Shown here: piece by piece, positions 8,698-31,235 of the stretch
Layout: every line of letters begins with the position of its first letter
How positions within the stretch are numbered: the first letter of the stretch is position 1
Assembly: GCA_021162805.1 (NCBI GenBank)
Contig: JAGGXZ010000230.1
Coordinates: forward strand, 1-40,194
Origin: Candidatus Poribacteria bacterium
GTDB taxonomy: Bacteria > Poribacteria > WGA-4E > B28-G17
Length of the DNA stretch: 40,194 bases
Reading direction: 5' to 3'
Position numbers and translations under genes: made by a program
The notes under the pieces: model-generated
The model's input: only the letters and a program-made list of their open reading frames with translations
Database searches by the model: none
Told to the model about the DNA's origin: nothing

Positions 8698-10320
8698 ATG
8701 AGACGTATCAAGGGGCTTGAGGTAACAACATCGATCTTCCTCATCTTAATCTCGGCGCTGATGGGGTTTGCGAAGCCAAACCTACCGGATGTCAACGGGT
8801 TCATAGTCTGGACGTCCAACCGGGATGGTGATTGGGAGATCTTTCGGATGAACCTGGACGGGACCGATAGGAAGCAGCTGACGCGCAATAACTCTCCCGA
8901 TACGACGGCGAAGATCTCGCCGGATGGGAGGATGATAGCGTGGACGAGGGAGCGGCGAGGAAGAAGGGAAGTCTGGGTGATGAACGCCGACGGATCGAAT
9001 CAGCACAAGGTGGTCTCGAACGCCAGCATGGGTGTATGGCTATCGAGGAGCGAGATTGTCATCTTCCGAGGGAGAAACGAGGTTGAGACTTACGTCCATG
9101 ATCTGAAGAGCGGATCGGAGAGGAGGACCTGGCCTCCTAAAGGGGCTAGGCTGAGGCCCCGCGAGGTTCGAGGCGCAACGCCCTCACCGAACGGGAGATA
9201 TTTCGTGGGCTGGTCTCCCAACCCCCGAGGAACGTGGATTTTCAGCTCTGACGGTAGGTTCCAGAAACACATACATGGGGGCTGCGAGGGTCATTTCGCC
9301 CCCGACGGTTCCTTCGTCTACTGGGTGATGTCACCGGGCACGTTCGGCAAGGCCTCGCTAAAGGGCGAGATATCCGGCGAGCTTTACAAGGTTGATCAAA
9401 ACAAGATGTGGTATGGGCATACTTATTTCCCCCAGCTCTCATCTGATATGCGCTACCTCGTCTACGGCGCTTGTCCCAACAATCAACACGATCATAACAC
9501 CTCGGACTACGAAATCTTCCTGATGAGGATGAAAGGGCTGAAACCCGCCTGGAGTTGGCCGCTTCGGCTGACGTATCACCCCAAAACGGATAGATGGCCG
9601 GACATATTCATACAAGGAGGTAAGAGGCGGTCGAGGGAGCGGGTGAGATCGGGACTGATCGCCCTATACGCCTTCACTGAGGGTAAGGGGACGGTCGTTC
9701 ACGACATCAGCGGGGTTAACCCGCCTTTGAACCTTCGGATAAAGGACCCAAAAGCCATCAGATGGATCAAGGGTGATAACGGCGTGGAGTTTGTCAAATC
9801 GAGTATGATCATAAGCGAAGGCGGAGCGGAAAAGCTGCTCAGGAAACTCAGATCGACAGGGAAGCTCTCGATCGAAGTCTGGGTTCAACCGGCGAATCTG
9901 CGACAAACCGGCCCTTCACGTATAGTGTCCATGTCGAAGGACCCGCTTAACCGGAATTTCACGCTCGGCCAGATAAAGTCGGATATAGCCTATAGGCTGA
10001 GAACGACGAAAACCAATCCGAACGGCATACCAGAATTGGATACGACGAGTCGGGTTCTTGACGGGGGAGTGGTGCATCTTGTCGCAACCTATGACGGCAG
10101 GGTGAAGCATCTTTATGTAAACGGGGTGAGACATCCCGAATCTCAGAGGATGAGCGGCGATTTCCGAAAGTGGAACTCCTTTCCGCTCATCATAGGAAAC
10201 GAAGCAACGGGCGATAGAACCTGGCTGGGGAAGGTCTTTCTGGTGGCGATCTACGACCGCCCGCTCAGACCAGATGAGGTGATGAGGAATTACAGGGCAG
10301 GATGGAGGATCGAAAGATGA
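8698..10320 (+). CDS. Secreted TolB-like propeller fused to a LamG domain
   Basis: A 540-residue exported protein, started by ATG after AGGGG. Residues 1-25 are a signal peptide. Residues about 35-300 are PD40/TolB-type propeller repeats (SNRDGDWEIFRMNLDGTDR, AKISPDGRMIAWT, VWVMNADGSNQHKV, SSDMRYLVYGA). Residues about 318-538 are a LamG/ConA-like lectin domain (SGLIALYAFTEGKGTVVHDI, LSIEVWVQP, HLVATYDGRVKHLYVNGV, VFLVAIYDRPLRPDEVMRNY). The stop overlaps the next start (ATGA at 10317-10320), so it heads the acetylation operon. The lectin-propeller combination suggests it binds the exported polymer or cell-surface glycan. That role is inferred from context. Confidence 0.8.
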   Translation: MRRIKGLEVTTSIFLILISALMGFAKPNLPDVNGFIVWTSNRDGDWEIFRMNLDGTDRKQLTRNNSPDTTAKISPDGRMIAWTRERRGRREVWVMNADGSNQHKVVSNASMGVWLSRSEIVIFRGRNEVETYVHDLKSGSERRTWPPKGARLRPREVRGATPSPNGRYFVGWSPNPRGTWIFSSDGRFQKHIHGGCEGHFAPDGSFVYWVMSPGTFGKASLKGEISGELYKVDQNKMWYGHTYFPQLSSDMRYLVYGACPNNQHDHNTSDYEIFLMRMKGLKPAWSWPLRLTYHPKTDRWPDIFIQGGKRRSRERVRSGLIALYAFTEGKGTVVHDISGVNPPLNLRIKDPKAIRWIKGDNGVEFVKSSMIISEGGAEKLLRKLRSTGKLSIEVWVQPANLRQTGPSRIVSMSKDPLNRNFTLGQIKSDIAYRLRTTKTNPNGIPELDTTSRVLDGGVVHLVATYDGRVKHLYVNGVRHPESQRMSGDFRKWNSFPLIIGNEATGDRTWLGKVFLVAIYDRPLRPDEVMRNYRAGWRIER

Positions 10321-12242
10321 GGCGAGTTCCCCTGACGCTCTTGATACTGCTAGCCCTATCCTCCCTAGCCTTATCCGGGGGTTTAATCTCAGACAAGGTG
10401 GCGATAGGAAGGTTCAACAGATCGTATAACCGGTTGAGCTCCAGGGTCATGATGAGATTCATCGAAAAACCCACGCTTGCAGCCCTCGACTACGCGGCAT
10501 ATCATGCAAACGTGATGTTAAATCAGCCGGAGCCCGAGGACTTCGTTCGGCCCCCGGAACCTCTATCGCTCGAGGAACTCAGCTTTGGCGGCGCACTCTC
10601 TCCGCCCTCGCTGAGGGACAGGATAGAGCAGACGCCTCTCACCAGGGAGGAAATCTCCTCACCGATGGCTTGGTCGCCGATGATGGATTACCTGGCCGAG
10701 TGGAATTACGACGAGTCCTTGGAGCTCATGATGGTCGGTGCAAAGGTTAGCGGTGAGAAATGGGGAAATCCAAGGCTTTCCATTCCCCCTCAGAGTATCA
10801 CCACCGCCTACCTTCACGGCCCGAAAGGCAAGGAGGAGATCTGGGTCAAGGTGGAGTTCAAACCGTGGGTGAAATTCCTCAAAGGCGTCGACGATGAGGA
10901 TAAGGACGGATTCCCGGAGATATACGGCAGGATAGATCCAAGGAGATACTCACGCAGATTAATCGCCAGGCTTAAAGGCCATTACCTCTCCAAGCTGTTA
11001 AGCGCCTCGGAGGTAGAGGATTACTTCCACGAACTTTCGTCCAATTGGTATGAGAAGTACAACACGGATATGCTGGATGTGAACCTCAACCGTCCGTGGC
11101 CTAACCTTCAAACTGAACCGGAGATCGTTAAGGAGCTCGGAGGTATAATCGTTCGAAACCCCACGGCCATAATCAAGGGCAGACCCTTCGGTAGGCCGAT
11201 ATATAACCTCTTCGTCGTCGATCCGCCCGATGAAAACATGAAGGCTAACATCGAAAGATGGAAGTCGGAGCTGCAAAGATGGGGGGATGGGAGCTGGGAA
11301 AGATGGCGGGGGAAGATCTCGGGTTTTCAAAAGGATATCCGCGATATACTTTCCAAGTTGCCGAAGGGAGCCAAAGGGATAGAGGGCAGAAACGGGTTCC
11401 TCTTCTTCCGCGGATCGCTCGAATATATCCTCAGCGGCGATCTTCGAAAACAGCGTAACGATCCCTTCCCCGCCATAGTTGATTACAAAAACAGGCTCGG
11501 GAAAAAGGGGATAGACATGTTGTTCGTGATCGTTCCGGCGAAGCCGGAGTTGTACCCCGAAAAGCTCTCCGATCATGCCCCCGACAGGAATGGGCCGTAT
11601 GTCACCCCCTACACCAGGAAGTTCCTCCTTGAGCTCGCCGAGGCAGGGGTAGAGACGATCGATCTGCTGCCCGCCTTCATGCGGGAGAGGGACCAAGGGG
11701 ATGAGCCGATCTACATGAAGCTCGACACGCATTGGTCCAACAGAGCCATCCGAATCGCCGCCCATCTTATAGCTGAAAGGATCAAACGTTATCCCTGGTT
11801 TAAGGAGGTGTGCAGATCTCCGATAAGATACAGAACCAGAGAGGTGGAGGTGGTCAGATTAGGAGATATAAGGGGGATGCTTCCCGAGGAGGAGAGGATC
11901 AAATATCCGCCGATGAGGCTCAAGGCACAGCAGGTCTTAAATCCTGATGGGAGCCCGTACAGGGATGATAAATCCTCTCCGATAGTGATCCTGGGGGATA
12001 GCTTCTGCGGCGTATTTCACTTCGAAGACTGCAAACATGCTGGGATCTCGGCCCATATCGCCAAGGAGATCGGCATGCCCGTCGATCTGATTATGGCATA
12101 CGGCAGCGGCCCCAGGATACGTAAGCTCTTCGCCCGAAGGGGCAAGGATGCCATCCGAAGTAAGAGATTGGTAATCTGGATGACGGCGGCGAGAGATCTG
12201 TATAACTATTGGGCGCCGTGGGAGATCGTGCCGGTGCCATGA
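10317..12242 (+). CDS. AlgX/AlgJ-like SGNH-fold protein, polysaccharide O-acetylation
   Basis: About 641 residues. The start ATG at 10317 overlaps the previous stop and has GGAGG 8 nt upstream. The ORF could be extended five codons to 10302, but that start has no ribosome site. A signal peptide (MRRVPLTLLILLALSSLALS) is followed by a long N-terminal region of unknown fold (about 30-350), then the AlgX/AlgJ-type SGNH domain: GRNGFLFFRGSLEYI (about 356), LFVIVPAKPELYPEKLS, DTHWSN (about 468, Asp-His pair) and VILGDSFCG (about 559, nucleophile Ser). In alginate systems AlgJ and AlgX transfer acetyl groups to the polymer in the periplasm, supplied by the MBOAT protein AlgI. The adjacent AlgI-like gene supports the same job here. 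The extra 330-residue N-terminal part is unusual for the family. Confidence 0.75.
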   Translation: MRRVPLTLLILLALSSLALSGGLISDKVAIGRFNRSYNRLSSRVMMRFIEKPTLAALDYAAYHANVMLNQPEPEDFVRPPEPLSLEELSFGGALSPPSLRDRIEQTPLTREEISSPMAWSPMMDYLAEWNYDESLELMMVGAKVSGEKWGNPRLSIPPQSITTAYLHGPKGKEEIWVKVEFKPWVKFLKGVDDEDKDGFPEIYGRIDPRRYSRRLIARLKGHYLSKLLSASEVEDYFHELSSNWYEKYNTDMLDVNLNRPWPNLQTEPEIVKELGGIIVRNPTAIIKGRPFGRPIYNLFVVDPPDENMKANIERWKSELQRWGDGSWERWRGKISGFQKDIRDILSKLPKGAKGIEGRNGFLFFRGSLEYILSGDLRKQRNDPFPAIVDYKNRLGKKGIDMLFVIVPAKPELYPEKLSDHAPDRNGPYVTPYTRKFLLELAEAGVETIDLLPAFMRERDQGDEPIYMKLDTHWSNRAIRIAAHLIAERIKRYPWFKEVCRSPIRYRTREVEVVRLGDIRGMLPEEERIKYPPMRLKAQQVLNPDGSPYRDDKSSPIVILGDSFCGVFHFEDCKHAGISAHIAKEIGMPVDLIMAYGSGPRIRKLFARRGKDAIRSKRLVIWMTAARDLYNYWAPWEIVPVP

Positions 12243-12259
12243 GGAGGTAAAGTCGGGAG

Positions 12260-13681
12260 ATGGTATTCGCATCGCACATATTCATCTTCTACTTCCTCCC
12301 CACGGCGTTGCTCCTATATTATCTCGTCCCCAGGAAATCGAAACACCTGATTTTGACGATCGTCAGCTACATCTTCTACGGGTGGGCTAACCCCTGGTAT
12401 ATCCTGCTCATCCTAGCATCAACGGCGGTGGACTACCTATGCGGGTTGATGATAGCCGGCAGGATCACCCTCTTTCCCTCCTCATCCCACACTCAACGCA
12501 GGTTGGCCGTCTTCATCTCGGTGGTGACCAACCTTTCGCTTCTCGGCTTTTTCAAGTACTTCGCCTTTGCCCAATCCAATCTGAACGCGATCCTTCAGGC
12601 CTTCGGAAGGGAGGCATTTGAGGTGCTCAGGATCACCCTGCCCGTCGGGATCTCCTTCTACACGTTTCAGTCGATGAGCTACACGATAGATCTCTATCGA
12701 GGTCATGCGCGACCGGCGAACTCTTTCGTGGATTTCGCCTGTTACGTCTCGATGTTTCCCCAGCTTGTCGCCGGCCCGATCGTCCGATATAGCGATATAG
12801 CCGATCAGCTCATCCACAGAACCTGCACGCTTGAGAAGTTCTCGCGCGGGATGATCTTCTTCATCCTGGGCTTCGCCAAAAAGGTGCTTCTGGCCAATCC
12901 GATGGGGGAAGTGGCGGATGCCTCGTTCAACGCCGGATCGCTGACATGGTATGATGCTTGGATAGGGGTTATAGCATACGCCTTTCAGATCTACTTCGAC
13001 TTCAGCGGATACTCGGATATGGCGATAGGACTGGGATTGATGCTTGGATTCCAGTTCTCCAAGAACTTCGACTCTCCGTATCACGCCGAGAGCATCACGA
13101 GCTTCTGGCGTCGCTGGCACATATCGTTATCCTCATGGCTTCGGGACTACCTCTATATCCCTTTAGGGGGCAACCGTAAGGGCCGAAAGCGGACATACTT
13201 CAACCTCATGACCGTCATGCTGCTGGGAGGGTTATGGCACGGGGCTCAGTGGAAATTCGTCATATGGGGCGGAATCCACGGATGTATGCTGGCCTTCGAG
13301 AGGATGCTCGGCAAGGAAAGCCCTTACCGGTTTCTCCCAAGAGCCTTTCGGGTGATGATCACCTTCACGATAATTCTGATCACGTGGGTGTTCTTCAGGG
13401 CCGATAGCTTAAGGGAGGCCCTCAGGTATCTGGGCTATATGTTCGGGCTGAAGGGAGCATGGCATACCTCCCTTCTGCTCGGATCGATCATCTATACGCC
13501 CTATCACCTGATCATCATGTTCACCTGCGCGGCCGTCACCTGGTTCGGGAAACAGTCATGGGATTTCGCCCAAAGTGGAATCACTCCGCTGAAGCTGACG
13601 ATGTTGATACCGCTTTTCATCCTAACCTTGGCGACGCTTTTCACTCAGGGTTTCAATCCGTTTCTCTACTTCCAGTTCTAA
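12260..13681 (+). CDS. AlgI-like membrane-bound O-acyltransferase (MBOAT)
   Basis: A 473-residue polytopic inner-membrane protein, the usual length for AlgI/DltB-type MBOATs. It opens in the family manner (MVFASHIFIFYFLPTALLLYYLV). It carries the MBOAT landmarks PVGISFYTFQSMSYTIDLYRG, FPQLVAGPIVRYSDI, FDFSGYSDMAIG, FWRRWHISLSSWLRDYLYIP and LLGGLWHGAQWKFVIWGGIH. The last holds the catalytic His (about residue 327). It moves acetyl groups across the inner membrane to periplasmic SGNH acetyltransferases. It is 17 bp after one AlgX-like gene and 17 bp before another, with GAGGAGG upstream. Confidence 0.9.
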   Translation: MVFASHIFIFYFLPTALLLYYLVPRKSKHLILTIVSYIFYGWANPWYILLILASTAVDYLCGLMIAGRITLFPSSSHTQRRLAVFISVVTNLSLLGFFKYFAFAQSNLNAILQAFGREAFEVLRITLPVGISFYTFQSMSYTIDLYRGHARPANSFVDFACYVSMFPQLVAGPIVRYSDIADQLIHRTCTLEKFSRGMIFFILGFAKKVLLANPMGEVADASFNAGSLTWYDAWIGVIAYAFQIYFDFSGYSDMAIGLGLMLGFQFSKNFDSPYHAESITSFWRRWHISLSSWLRDYLYIPLGGNRKGRKRTYFNLMTVMLLGGLWHGAQWKFVIWGGIHGCMLAFERMLGKESPYRFLPRAFRVMITFTIILITWVFFRADSLREALRYLGYMFGLKGAWHTSLLLGSIIYTPYHLIIMFTCAAVTWFGKQSWDFAQSGITPLKLTMLIPLFILTLATLFTQGFNPFLYFQF

Positions 13682-13698
13682 TCAGGGGGTTTCAAGGG

Positions 13699-15207
13699 AT
13701 GAGGGGAAATCTTAAAACCGAACGGGATAAGAGGGGTTTAATGCTTCTATCGTTGATCCTGTTCCTACTCCCCCTGTTTTCCGTCCCCATCATCCAATTG
13801 ATATATGAGAAAGCCAAAGGCAGGCCGGTTCAGGAGTTGGATCTCTTCAAACGTCTTCCCACAGCCTCATATCTGAGGGAGTATCAGGACAGGCTTAAGG
13901 ATCAATCTGTGGTGGCGAGGTTCACCAGGAGAAGATACCAGTGGCTGTTGACCGATCTGCTCAGACGTGGAAACAGCAAGGTCATCGTCGGCCGGGACGG
14001 ATGGCTCTTTTACCGTCCGGCCGTGGATTACATAGTCCGTCCCGAGCTGCGTCCCGAAGTTTTAACGGCCATCCTTACCTTCCATAGATCCCTGAAGGCT
14101 CATGGAATCGATCTGATCCTGGTTCCCGTTCCCGTCAAAGCGACCATCTATCCGGAGCACCTCTCCAAGAGATACGATCCAAATTGGGGGCCAGCCATGA
14201 ACCGACATGTCGGGGAACTCTTCGATCGGCTTCGTGCCTCGGGGGTGAAGGTGTTCGACCTAACCCACCTTCTATGGGAGAGGAGATGGAAAGGGGATAG
14301 TCTCCTCTATCTCCCACAGGATACCCATTGGTCGCCCTCCGGTATGAGTATAGTCGCCAAAGCCCTTGCAGAGGAGATCAAGAGGGAGGGATGGCTTGAT
14401 GGAGTAGAGAGGACGCGGTTTTACACGGAATCCGTCAGCCTGAAACGACACGGCGATCTCTATGATATGCTCCAACTGCCCTATGAAAGCAGAAGGTTGA
14501 GGCCGACCGAAATTCGTATCGAGAGGGTTCTTCACGGCGCGGGCGATCCTGTCCTCCCAGATCCCTCCTCGCCGATAATCCTCCTCGGCGATAGCTTCAC
14601 GAACGTCTACTCTCAGGCGAAGATGGGATGGGGAGATCACGCCGGCTTTTCAGAACATCTGTCGTTTGAGATGGGCATACGGCTCGATGTGATCGCCATA
14701 AACGGCGGAGGATCAACGGCATGTAGGGAAGCGTTGATCAGGAGACAAAGCGCTTTGTCCGGCAAAAGACTTGTCATATGGCAGTTCACAACCAGAGACC
14801 TCGCCGATCCGGAGAGCGAATGGAAGGTGTTGGAGGTTCCTCCGCCTTCCATCCCCATCGCAAGGGCTGACGGAGATGAACTGACGGTGGTCGGTGAGAC
14901 AACCCTCGTCTCCTTCGTCCCAGATCCCATGCAGGTTCCATATACCGAGTGTCTCACGTATGTCAAATATAAAGTTCTATCGGTCGAGGACGGGGTTTAT
15001 GATGGCAAAGAGCTCCTGGCGGTGTTTTGGGGGATGAGGGATTCCAAGCTCATGCCGGCGGCAAGGTTCAAGGTGGGCGAAAGGCATCGGCTTATCCTCG
15101 AGCCGTTAAGCGAGCATCCGGAGTTAAACCACATCATGCGGGCGGACGATACGGACGCTTACGATCTCACCCCGTTCTGGGCAGTGAAGTTCACCCGCCT
15201 CAAATAG
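13699..15207 (+). CDS. Second AlgX/AlgJ-like SGNH-fold protein
   Basis: A 502-residue protein. I place the start at the ATG at 13699, after AGGGGG. The open frame reaches further upstream, but that part overlaps the MBOAT gene out of frame. One N-terminal transmembrane anchor (about 14-33, LMLLSLILFLLPLFSVPII) is followed by the SGNH domain: GRDGWLFYRPAVDYIV (about 97), LILVPVPVKATIYPEHLS, QDTHWSPSGM (about 207) and IILLGDSFTNVYS (about 297). A C-terminal domain of about 120 residues (from DELTVVGETTLVSF) is probably a beta-rich carbohydrate-binding module, as in AlgX. It is a paralogue of the protein at 10317. Having two suggests a division of labour such as donor relay and polymer transfer, as proposed for AlgJ and AlgX. 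Confidence 0.8.
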   Translation: MRGNLKTERDKRGLMLLSLILFLLPLFSVPIIQLIYEKAKGRPVQELDLFKRLPTASYLREYQDRLKDQSVVARFTRRRYQWLLTDLLRRGNSKVIVGRDGWLFYRPAVDYIVRPELRPEVLTAILTFHRSLKAHGIDLILVPVPVKATIYPEHLSKRYDPNWGPAMNRHVGELFDRLRASGVKVFDLTHLLWERRWKGDSLLYLPQDTHWSPSGMSIVAKALAEEIKREGWLDGVERTRFYTESVSLKRHGDLYDMLQLPYESRRLRPTEIRIERVLHGAGDPVLPDPSSPIILLGDSFTNVYSQAKMGWGDHAGFSEHLSFEMGIRLDVIAINGGGSTACREALIRRQSALSGKRLVIWQFTTRDLADPESEWKVLEVPPPSIPIARADGDELTVVGETTLVSFVPDPMQVPYTECLTYVKYKVLSVEDGVYDGKELLAVFWGMRDSKLMPAARFKVGERHRLILEPLSEHPELNHIMRADDTDAYDLTPFWAVKFTRLK

Positions 15208-25187: not shown

Positions 25188-26816
25188 TCAATCCCACAGC
25201 AATAGCCTTTCAACTTTCGCCATATCCGATTCGCGCTCCGTGGGATCGGATTGATAGTCGTAGTATTGCTTCATGACCTTTGCGGCAAACCTTTCGGTCT
25301 GTCTGATCGCCGGTATGTTCTTCTTCACATTGCCCGGGCCGGAGTTATAGGCGCATATCGCTAGGACGTAATTTCCCGAGTATCTATCCACCATCTGCTT
25401 CAGATATCTCATCCCCGCCTCGAGGTTCTTGCGGGGATCGAACCTCTCATCGATCCTCGGATTTCTGACGGGATGTCTTGGATTCCGGTATCTGGGCACT
25501 TTTAGGCCGAGCGATCGCGCCGTGGAGGGCATCAGTTGCATCAAGCCGGCCGCTCCTGCCGGGGAGACGGCCCTTGGGTTGAAATTGGATTCCATCTTTA
25601 TAAGCGCCATAACCAGAAGCGGATCGAGATCGTATCTCTCCACCATCTCCTCAAACTTGCTTTTCCTCCCTGGCTCTTCGTTTCCGACCTCAGGTTCGAT
25701 CTCCACGGCGGGGGGATCGATGGAGGGAGAGGCGTCCAAGGTAATGGGAGGAGACGGCATCTGGATCTTTTCGTGTTTTGAATCGAGCTTCGGTTTGACG
25801 GTTATCCGCGGCTTATCCTTTCCCTGCTCGATCGATCGCATTGATTGAGGTATCTCAGCCGCTAGATCCACATCTATCTCCGGGGCTGATAGATCCTTGA
25901 AGAACTCAATTCCCCCTTTCCTGCTCGGCGGGGCGAAATCGATCTGCACCGATAACAGATGTTGATACCTCATTTCGGGATCGGATACATAGGCGTAGTT
26001 GAGCCTTTTGCCCCCGAAATCGAGGGATATCCCGCCGGTCAGGGTGGGTCTTTCAAGTCGCTGTGAGATCTTCTCCATCATACCGCCCCTGAGCGAAATC
26101 CATCTCCATCTCAGCTCGAAGCCGGATCGGAGGATCCGCCTGTCGGGGTTCACCGCCGCACTGAATCTGAAGGATCTGTGGGGATTGAGGTTAACCCCGA
26201 AGGTAAACTGCCTGTCAAATCGTTTCAGGAGATCTCCATAAGAGTTATAGATCCTGGTCCCGTTCAGATCCCTTATGCCTATCCCGAAACTCAGCCATCG
26301 GGAAGGCCGGACATCTACGCCGAAGTCGAAACTGATCGCCCAAAGGCTCTCCGGATCGGCTGCACGGTTATAGCCCACGTTCCATCCGAAGGCCACGCCG
26401 CTTTTGAACCGCTTCGCGTAAGAGAGCAGAACCTGATTATCCCCCGTCAGAAACATGCCGAAAGGGTTAAAGGGAGAATCTATCAGAAACCTGTCTTCAT
26501 AGTTCATATCGACAATGCTGAAACCAAGCACGCCCAATCGCCCTATGGGACATGCGGCCGATAACGCCCCCTGAGATAGATCATAGACGAACTCCCTGCG
26601 TTTTATGTCGGATATCCCGGCGGGGTTCCAGAAGACACCGGTAGGGTCATCGGAAAGCGAAGCAAAGGCACCGCCCATCCCCAAGGGTCTGACGCCTATA
26701 TCGCCTCTATATTCTGAGAAGGATCGAGCATATATCGTCAAGGTGAAAAGGATCACGACGACACACAGCATCCCTCGTTTAAAATCGGACGAATCTTTTA
26801 GGATCAACCGGCTCAT
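25188..26816 (-). CDS. Outer-membrane barrel (PorV/UPF0164-like) fused to a lytic transglycosylase (SLT) domain
   Basis: A 542-residue exported protein. The ATG at 26816 follows a GAGG/GAGGG site; an internal ATG (26771) is an alternative. Residues about 16-32 are the signal core. From 36, YRGDIGVRPLGMGGAFASLS, then DDPTGVFWNPAGISDI, is the hallmark start of PorV/UPF0164/FadL-like outer-membrane barrels, followed by alternating strands to about 300. A charged, Pro-rich linker (about 305-385) leads to an SLT lytic transglycosylase domain (about 390-515): ALIKMESNFNPRAVSP (catalytic Glu about 407), AGAAGLMQLMPSTARSLGL and AICAYNSGPGNVKK. The enzyme end would face peptidoglycan from the outer membrane. 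I know no common protein with this order. It overlaps the LysM-M23 gene by 38 bp, so the two are coupled. Confidence 0.8.
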   Translation of the reverse strand: MSRLILKDSSDFKRGMLCVVVILFTLTIYARSFSEYRGDIGVRPLGMGGAFASLSDDPTGVFWNPAGISDIKRREFVYDLSQGALSAACPIGRLGVLGFSIVDMNYEDRFLIDSPFNPFGMFLTGDNQVLLSYAKRFKSGVAFGWNVGYNRAADPESLWAISFDFGVDVRPSRWLSFGIGIRDLNGTRIYNSYGDLLKRFDRQFTFGVNLNPHRSFRFSAAVNPDRRILRSGFELRWRWISLRGGMMEKISQRLERPTLTGGISLDFGGKRLNYAYVSDPEMRYQHLLSVQIDFAPPSRKGGIEFFKDLSAPEIDVDLAAEIPQSMRSIEQGKDKPRITVKPKLDSKHEKIQMPSPPITLDASPSIDPPAVEIEPEVGNEEPGRKSKFEEMVERYDLDPLLVMALIKMESNFNPRAVSPAGAAGLMQLMPSTARSLGLKVPRYRNPRHPVRNPRIDERFDPRKNLEAGMRYLKQMVDRYSGNYVLAICAYNSGPGNVKKNIPAIRQTERFAAKVMKQYYDYQSDPTERESDMAKVERLLLWD

Positions 26817-27495
26817 CTTTCACCCTCACCTCAAAATGAAGATGTGGCCCTGTGGAAAGGCCGCTATTGCCCGAAAATCCGATCCTCTCCCCGCACTTGA
26901 CCCGTTCTCCCGGACTGACGGAGATAACGGATAGGTGACCGTATAGGGTCGAGATCCCGCCTTTATGCTCGATTATCACCGTCAGACCATATCCTCCCAG
27001 CCGTCCTGCAAAGGTCACCTTTCCGGCGGCCGCTGCTCTGACGGGGGTACCGATCCTGGCCGCCAGATCAACCCCCTTGTGAAACTCGCGTCGCCTTGTT
27101 ATCGGGTGTATCCGCCACCCGAACGGCGACGTCACACGGGCGCCGCGAGGGAGAGGGCTTGTTAACCTTAATTTCCCGCCGATAGAGCGGATAACGGACG
27201 TCGGGAGATAGGAGGTTTTCACCTTTCGACCTTCAATCGCTTTCCCTCGGTCACCTGCTGAAGGATCGGGATGTGGAATAATCAACGTTTGTCCGATCAC
27301 CAGATAATCCCTTGGCGTCATATGGTTAGCCCTCATGATCTGTTGAGGCGACACGTTATATCTACGGGAAATCTCCCAAAGGGTTTCACCGAATTTCACC
27401 CTATGCTTGATGGTGACAGATGAGGCGTGGGAGAAGGTGAGGGAGAAAAACATCAGGAGAGCCATGGCGGTTGCCGATTGGAAACGAGGTTTCAT
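26779..27495 (-). CDS. LysM-M23 peptidoglycan endopeptidase
   Basis: A 238-residue exported protein with GGGAGG before the ATG. Signal peptide about 1-24, one LysM domain (about 30-74, HRVKFGETLWEISRRYNVSP and DYLVIGQTLIIP) for peptidoglycan binding, then an M23/LytM domain (about 115-235). The zinc site is complete: FHKGVDLAA (His 139, Asp 143) and GPHLHFEVR (His 218, His 220). Such enzymes cut peptide crosslinks in the wall. Its tail overlaps the barrel/transglycosylase gene, giving a paired endopeptidase and glycan-strand cutter. It could assist insertion of an envelope machine or outer-membrane attachment. Confidence 0.92.
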   Translation of the reverse strand: MKPRFQSATAMALLMFFSLTFSHASSVTIKHRVKFGETLWEISRRYNVSPQQIMRANHMTPRDYLVIGQTLIIPHPDPSAGDRGKAIEGRKVKTSYLPTSVIRSIGGKLRLTSPLPRGARVTSPFGWRIHPITRRREFHKGVDLAARIGTPVRAAAAGKVTFAGRLGGYGLTVIIEHKGGISTLYGHLSVISVSPGERVKCGERIGFSGNSGLSTGPHLHFEVRVKDEPVDPKRFVRF

Positions 27496-30319: not shown

Positions 30320-30348
30320 TTGCAACGGCCTTAATTTTATGATAAAAT
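30320..30348 (+). promoter_or_regulatory. Extended -10 promoter for the 284-residue secreted protein gene
   Basis: TTGCAA (30320-30325) and TAAAAT (30343-30348) are 17 bp apart with TGA before the -10, giving the same TGATAAAAT as the divergent promoter 22 bp to its left. The ATG is at 30381. Confidence 0.7.
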
Positions 30349-30380
30349 TCTATTTGTACTTTCAGCTAGGGAGGGATAGA

Positions 30381-31235
30381 ATGAAAATAACGGTAGCTTT
30401 TGTGCTTCTCTTAACCCTGGGGCTGGGGCTTTCATATGCCTCAGACATAGCCTTTTATGTTGGGCACTGGAACACAGACGGGTGGTACGACGAGTCACAA
30501 TTCAAGGATGTCGAGACGATAATCAACGAGACGGGGAAGATGTTCAAGGACATTAAGAAGTTCGATGACGATCATCTGAAGGAGTTCGAGGCATGGGCTA
30601 AGGACAACATGAACGATGGCGAATTCGATATCATCTGGCTTAACGGATGCATGCCAAGCGCCCTTTATCCTTATCCAAACAAGGAGCCCGATGGTTCCGT
30701 TGCTGAAGGTTGGCTTGACGGAGGGAATATGTTCATAAACGTCGGTGACTGGTTTGCCTATGTCTCTTATGAGTGCGGGGGAGCCAGGTGTACGCAGAAC
30801 GGCTCGCAGGGTGCTGCTAATATACTGGATCTTGGAACGGGGATTATCACCGCCGCCAATAACACCATGATGAAGGTGACTCCTACAGGCAAGAAGTATC
30901 TACCGAGCCTTGAGAGTCCCTGTAAAACCGATAGGCCTGTCGTGCTCACCGAGGTTAAAGACCCGTGGGAAGTAGCGGCGATATTTGCCTCCTTGGGCGG
31001 CTCTGATGATCCTGCTAAGGAATCCCAAGCTGATCCGGTCGTCATCCACAACAAGCAGACGAACGGTTATGTTGCTATAATAAACCAGGCTGCAGGTGGA
31101 CCTGCAGGTTGGTTGAAGGATAGAGGTAAAGTGTGTGCCGAATTCATCAAGAACTGGGTGGCTGAAGTCGTCGGCCTCACCCCCGTCGAGCCTCAGGATA
31201 AGCTCGCCACAACCTGGGGTGAAATCAAGAGATAA
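30381..31235 (+). CDS. Secreted protein of a family known mainly from Poribacteria, with KLATTWG C-terminus
   Basis: A 284-residue exported protein. The true start is the ATG at 30381 (GGAGGG upstream), giving signal peptide MKITVAFVLLLTLGLGLSYA. The mature chain starts DIAFYVGHWNTDGWYDESQ and continues FDIIWLNGCMPSALYPYPN, GGNMFINVGDWFAYVSYECG and GAANILDLGTGIITA. The layout recalls ThuA-like or glutamine-amidotransferase-like folds used on sugars, but catalytic residues are not clear. The last 18 residues (TPVEPQDKLATTWGEIKR) are set off from the fold. They share a pattern with the end of the LamG protein at 6657. Four Cys could form disulfides. It is monocistronic: its own promoter at 30320-30348 and a hairpin at 31247-31278. 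Confidence 0.75.
   Translation: MKITVAFVLLLTLGLGLSYASDIAFYVGHWNTDGWYDESQFKDVETIINETGKMFKDIKKFDDDHLKEFEAWAKDNMNDGEFDIIWLNGCMPSALYPYPNKEPDGSVAEGWLDGGNMFINVGDWFAYVSYECGGARCTQNGSQGAANILDLGTGIITAANNTMMKVTPTGKKYLPSLESPCKTDRPVVLTEVKDPWEVAAIFASLGGSDDPAKESQADPVVIHNKQTNGYVAIINQAAGGPAGWLKDRGKVCAEFIKNWVAEVVGLTPVEPQDKLATTWGEIKR

Follow-up and report, generated by a model that had tools for sequence, protein, structure and literature searches.

Domain content and gene neighbourhood of the fusion

In the window (the whole stretch of DNA analysed here, 40,194 nucleotides from a Candidatus Poribacteria bacterium), a single minus-strand gene (25188..26816 with its stop codon, 25191-26816 without it) encodes, from an ATG start, a protein of 542 amino acids joining a barrel to a lytic transglycosylase; all features of this locus given below lie on the minus strand. 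Immediately 5' of the ATG, the purine-rich GAGGTGAGGGTGAAAG (26817..26832) is by inspection a possible ribosome-binding site. The predicted signal peptide (residues 1-32, 26721..26816), with a hydropathy peak at residues 17-28, has no lipobox, and its cleavage was placed by inspection near ARS/F. It is followed by an N-terminal hatch (residues 37-74, 26595..26708), delimited by orthologue conservation and AlphaFold, and by a 14-stranded barrel (residues 75-293, 25938..26594), assigned from AlphaFold, Foldseek and a sequence profile against the PDB; plug and strands together take up residues 37-295. No significant Pfam match was found for this barrel half, which matched the NCBIfam models PorV/PorQ NF033709 (E 1.2e-11, 44.8 bits) and PorV2 NF052325 (E 5e-11), in both cases below the curated cut-off; NF033709 was also matched separately by each of the 32 orthologues (32/32). 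Since the NF033709 score fell below the cut-off (44.8 vs 90 bits for this PorV family), we named this part a PorV/FadL-type barrel, not PorV.

The C-terminal SLT lytic transglycosylase domain (residues 386-505, 25302..25661) was defined by Pfam, by alignment to Slt70 and MltC, by conservation and by fold. Residues 389-502 matched Pfam PF01464 with an E value of 1e-31 (109.3 bits, curated cut-off 21.3), and the SLT family 1 signatures ES, GLMQ-like and AYN were all present. In 32 orthologues, E409, S410, G424, L425, Q427, A489 and Y490 were invariant and N491 nearly so, the catalytic Glu409 (codon 25590..25592) being placed by the orthologue alignment and aligned to Slt70. The preliminary description of this DNA, made from its letters, had proposed a complete SLT domain with its catalytic glutamate, as well as a proline-rich linker ahead of it, and both were borne out. 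The linker, rich in proline and charged residues (residues 298-385, 25662..25925), is unconserved (score 0.06, vs 0.51 for the SLT domain) and measures 18-106 residues across orthologues (90 in the source protein); such freedom in length, together with the low conservation, fits a tether.

Immediately upstream lies a gene for a LysM-M23 endopeptidase (26779..27495, 238 aa), with LysM and Peptidase_M23 domains by Pfam and the HxxxD and HxH zinc-site motifs; its end overlaps the start of the fusion gene by 38 nt (26779..26816). The M23 metal-site motifs were present in 22 of the 22 loci read, and NCBIfam matches of the M23 domain included MepM, DipM and EnvC-like models. This pairing, described earlier as translational coupling, proved widespread: a LysM-M23 gene stood directly upstream of the fusion in 64 of the 79 genomes compared, a gene for a small predicted lipoprotein (~160-180 residues) lay at most 1.1 kb upstream in 67/79, and both were upstream in 58/79. 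In several lineages, namely families f3 and f7 and genus g14, no M23 gene lay beside the fusion, so that the pair is not obligatory and the fusion can work without M23 at its locus. No match to the small upstream lipoprotein was found in the source genome. A gene of this kind (L062:11473-11997) and its orthologues carry GCGGSN..NPV followed by what appears by eye to be Ig-like sequence, and no matching family was found for it. Further neighbours in related genomes, named by inspection (TilS, hypoxanthine phosphoribosyltransferase, cytochrome c, oxidoreductases), look unrelated to the fusion. Among the neighbours (M23, lipoprotein and metabolic genes), no T9SS-like gene (SprA, C25) or gene bearing a T9SS-type C-terminal domain (CTD) was found.

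A search for the same domain order found barrel and SLT sharing an open frame in about 80 of the 83 genomes of the class, apparently as a single copy per genome. The search used profiles and counted matches sharing contig, strand and open frame, so that the figure is a tally of such matches rather than of fusions each read by eye. In the exceptions (G013, G015 and G075), contig ends or a break in the frame interrupted the fusion, and every family of the class had relatives with the same-frame fusion, single-contig assemblies included. That two genes were joined by an error of assembly or a frameshift, for which nothing speaks except the unusual domain pair, has practically no probability left in view of this recurrence, since a fusion that recurs class-wide as one frame is due neither to chance nor to artefact; a sequencing error is ruled out on the same grounds. 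In G060, from another class of the phylum, the SLT open reading frame runs off the contig end. Outside the phylum, scans of genome contigs and viral contigs gave essentially SLT-only matches, with weak queries (single-sequence or conserved-SLT peptide patterns). No description of a PorV/barrel-transglycosylase fusion was found in the literature searched, and the barrel-anchored transglycosylase is apparently undescribed, a new combination of known parts.

Lytic transglycosylases are usually soluble or lipid-held. The fusion shares its family 1 SLT domain and the ES, GLMQ and AYN signatures with the lipid-anchored MltC/MltD and the soluble Slt70, but differs from them in its predicted anchoring by an N-terminal β-barrel instead of a lipid, in having no lipobox, and in carrying no LysM in the same chain.

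Fold, relatives and conserved loops of the barrel

AlphaFold modelling with the 32 orthologues gave hatch helices at residues 45-70 and ~14 strands within residues 75-293, with the linker disordered and the SLT domain helical. When the barrel was modelled separately, with an alignment of the orthologues plus seven PorV paralogues from the source genome, pLDDT was 86.5 and pTM 0.81. The hatch contains an invariant N64-P65 flanked by near-invariant W63, A66 and G67 (32 orthologues). In a Foldseek search of the PDB, the top match was PorV from the type 9 translocon (6h3i chain F, E 1e-8, TMq 0.65), followed by a further PorV and then by FadL; BamG (9n2d chain B) scored E 2e-4 with TMq 0.48. PorV was likewise the sole significant match of the barrel sequence profile in the PDB (E 5.4e-11), in a profile somewhat biased toward PorV by the seven paralogues that it includes; the same search gave no sequence match to BamG. 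Thus, the closest solved relative of the fusion barrel is PorV, ahead of FadL and BamG, in agreement with the PorV-type barrel of the preliminary description; the refuting outcome named there, an N-terminal half that does not form a barrel, was not borne out by the model. PorV-type barrels are plugged carriers, and the pore of the T9SS is SprA. Consistently with this, we rejected an open pore on the hatch in the AlphaFold model and the PorV match, and the earlier proposal that the enzyme is mounted on an outer-membrane pore found no support.

With PorV, the fusion has in common the 14-stranded plugged barrel and a hatch with an NPA motif, but its barrel and first hairpin are shorter, it carries a wall-cutting enzyme, and its gene has neither C25/PorU nor a CTD substrate as a neighbour. 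Another FadL-family barrel that acts as a subunit, not a transporter, is BamG, from the BAM complex of Bacteroidota (PMC12611786; PDB 9n2d), but it is a weaker fold match than PorV.

Conservation was concentrated in outer loops 1 and 2 (scores 0.83 and 0.57), against 0.15-0.42 for the other outer loops and 0.12-0.19 for the inner turns, the designation of loops as outer depending on an assumed topology derived from the number of strands. Outer loop 2 (residues 105-125, 26442..26504; DRF...NP.G.F..G.NQ) was delimited by conservation and the PorV alignment. In Flavobacterium johnsoniae, three outer loops of PorV reach into the SprA pore, where the main-chain carbonyls of N87 and F115 grip a conserved CTD lysine (PMC10994853). 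By our own reading of a HMMER alignment at ~11% identity, N87 and F115 correspond to Y78 and Y106 of the fusion, where outer loops 1 and 2 begin, although the first strand/hairpin and loop are shorter than those of PorV. We regard this apparent correspondence with the CTD-contact region as a lead, not proof. Since its outer side has been kept conserved, the barrel probably also binds, besides anchoring, a partner that sets the cutting site.

Type 9-like secretion parts in the class

All 40 genomes of the class that were searched had SprA-like matches, mostly in open reading frames of ~2000-2300 aa, as did both genomes from outside it; in all but one genome these proteins scored below the TIGR04189 cut-off. 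The SprA-like open reading frame of the source genome (G000; L075:7364-13396, 2010 aa) aligns with SprA over several stretches (E 1.9e-16), scores under the TIGR04189 cut-off and narrowly over that of Pfam SprA_N (29.9 vs 27 bits), and is a candidate translocon for the CTD proteins of the class. CTDs over cut-off were present in 20/20 genomes and C25 (PorU-type) proteases in 19/20. A C25 gene followed by a PorV-type gene was seen in the source genome (L082, L213) and in G002, G010, G012, G003 and G007; the C25 gene had a CTD-like end at L082, L213, L206, L207, L208, L211 and L212, and other PorV-type genes came after genes with CTD-like ends (L083, L087, L084). The 13 genomes scanned had 7-25 PorV-family matches each. 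A GldM model search gave no match anywhere, controls included, and so ran without a working control. For Poribacteria, a single-cell study from 2014 reported CTDs but not Por secretion genes (PMC3909097); unlike in that study, divergent sequence-based candidates for SprA, C25 and PorV now exist.

A co-occurrence of the fusion with secretion genes, suggested earlier as a check, was thus found in so far as SprA-like proteins and CTDs occurred in every genome tested and C25 in nearly all; however, with these parts near-universal in the class, co-occurrence carries almost no information, and none of them adjoins the fusion.

Proposed function and alternatives

The explanation that we favour, and consider probably correct, is that the fusion is a transglycosylase tethered to the outer membrane, which works with the M23 enzyme to open peptidoglycan from the side of that membrane. 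It draws on sequence, fold prediction, gene pairing and conservation, from which we infer localisation, activity, joint action and any partner. The plugged 14-stranded PorV/FadL-type barrel would anchor its C-terminal fusion partner, the SLT domain, to the outer membrane; since the number of strands is even, both barrel ends would be periplasmic, and the SLT domain would hang below the outer membrane on its flexible linker, in a topology assumed from that strand number. Judging from its intact catalytic motifs, the SLT domain would cleave the glycan strands of peptidoglycan, while the LysM-M23 enzyme from the overlapping upstream gene would cut the peptide cross-links, so that the two would jointly open the wall locally at a site decided by the partner of the barrel. 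Against this proposal speak the conserved outer loops, for which a simple anchor would have no need, and the lineages (f3, f7 and g14) with no M23 gene beside the fusion. As proposed, a whole bacterial class would use a β-barrel anchor for a transglycosylase, alongside an endopeptidase and in many cases a small lipoprotein, which raises the testable question of how a large outer-membrane machine gains room in peptidoglycan.

What such a tethered enzyme would serve can be read in several ways. The barrel may be a mere membrane anchor in place of the lipid anchor of the MltA-D type, with the pair serving general wall turnover or daughter-cell separation, a reading that we find quite possible though somewhat short of probable: nearly every genome of the class has the fusion, apparently in one copy, its LysM-M23 partner resembles hydrolases of division and remodelling (the MepM, DipM and EnvC-like matches), and secretion genes are absent nearby, but outer loops 1 and 2 are among the most conserved parts of the barrel, which is unexpected for a mere anchor, and lipoproteins appear to be present in the class, so that a lipid anchor was available. 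Alternatively, the barrel might dock, as PorV does, on an SprA-like translocon or a C25/PorV surface complex, with SLT and M23 clearing peptidoglycan under a type 9-like secretion site. The class-wide presence of T9SS-like parts (SprA-like, C25 and CTDs) with C25-PorV neighbours, a barrel nearer PorV than FadL or BamG, and conserved outer loops that align with the PorV residues touching the CTD inside SprA all point in this direction. Against it, the fusion adjoins no T9SS-like gene, genomes with up to 25 PorV-family matches offer better SprA partners in the C25-adjacent ones, PorV has a longer first strand and loop, only one genome has an SprA-like protein that is not below the family cut-off, and GldM gave no match, though in a search without a working control. 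Moreover, the peptidoglycan link that a review gives for the Bacteroidota T9SS is PorE, a binder and not a cutter (PMC7463736). PorE of Porphyromonas gingivalis (PMC7192894) resembles the fusion as an outer-membrane protein that contacts peptidoglycan, within a type 9 system, but is a lipoprotein binding peptidoglycan via OmpA_C, neither barrel nor enzyme.

On balance, we consider this docking at a secretion site unlikely, while giving it some real weight, and a shade more doubtful still its fullest form, in which a PorV-type carrier turned enzyme mount, docked on the SprA-like translocon with M23 as partner, would serve a type 9-like system outside Bacteroidota as a subunit dedicated to wall clearing. 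Wall remodelling at the outer membrane without any role in secretion fits the data equally well as the secretion role. A FadL-like barrel that moves what its own SLT domain has cut across the outer membrane would account for the FadL-family fold and for enzyme and barrel being joined in one chain; however, muropeptides are polar whereas FadL moves hydrophobic compounds, the barrel of the model is plugged by its hatch, and the sequence is nearer PorV than the transport FadLs, which makes such muropeptide handling very improbable.

Other PorV-type barrels of the class carry the peptidoglycan-binding domains OmpA and SPOR, so that a link between this barrel and the wall occurs more than once, which speaks for the favoured explanation. 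A second PorV-type barrel fusion ends in SPOR (L216:1774-4296, L217:922-3438, L218:828-3338, L219:1591-3552, L220:1350-3578); two members also have OmpA ahead of SPOR, in the order barrel, Ig-like part, OmpA and SPOR. In the source genome, a PorV-type barrel with a long C-terminal extension lacking a Pfam match (L084:6071-8074) has, immediately upstream, the gene of a 1512-aa propeller protein whose end is CTD-like; a transglutaminase-like identity of the C-terminal part of this barrel protein was rejected, Pfam support being absent.

Elsewhere in the window, an MBOAT acyltransferase gene lies between those of two AlgX-type SGNH proteins (10302-15207, plus strand), as in polysaccharide O-acetylation clusters. 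Moreover, a plus-strand gene (30339-31235), whose protein gave no Pfam or NCBIfam match, ends in a C-terminal motif, V.P..KL[A/T/S]T.W[G/A].[I/L]K plus a few residues, that recurs in proteins of the class (L222-L251). Its DNA pattern occurred 40 times in the source genome, where the reversed control gave 0, and across 13 genomes the count per genome was 1-91 (control 0-3). All 35 copies read lay 11-16 residues ahead of a stop, and by its sequence the KL[A/T/S]TxW[G/A] motif looks like an undescribed C-terminal sorting tag.
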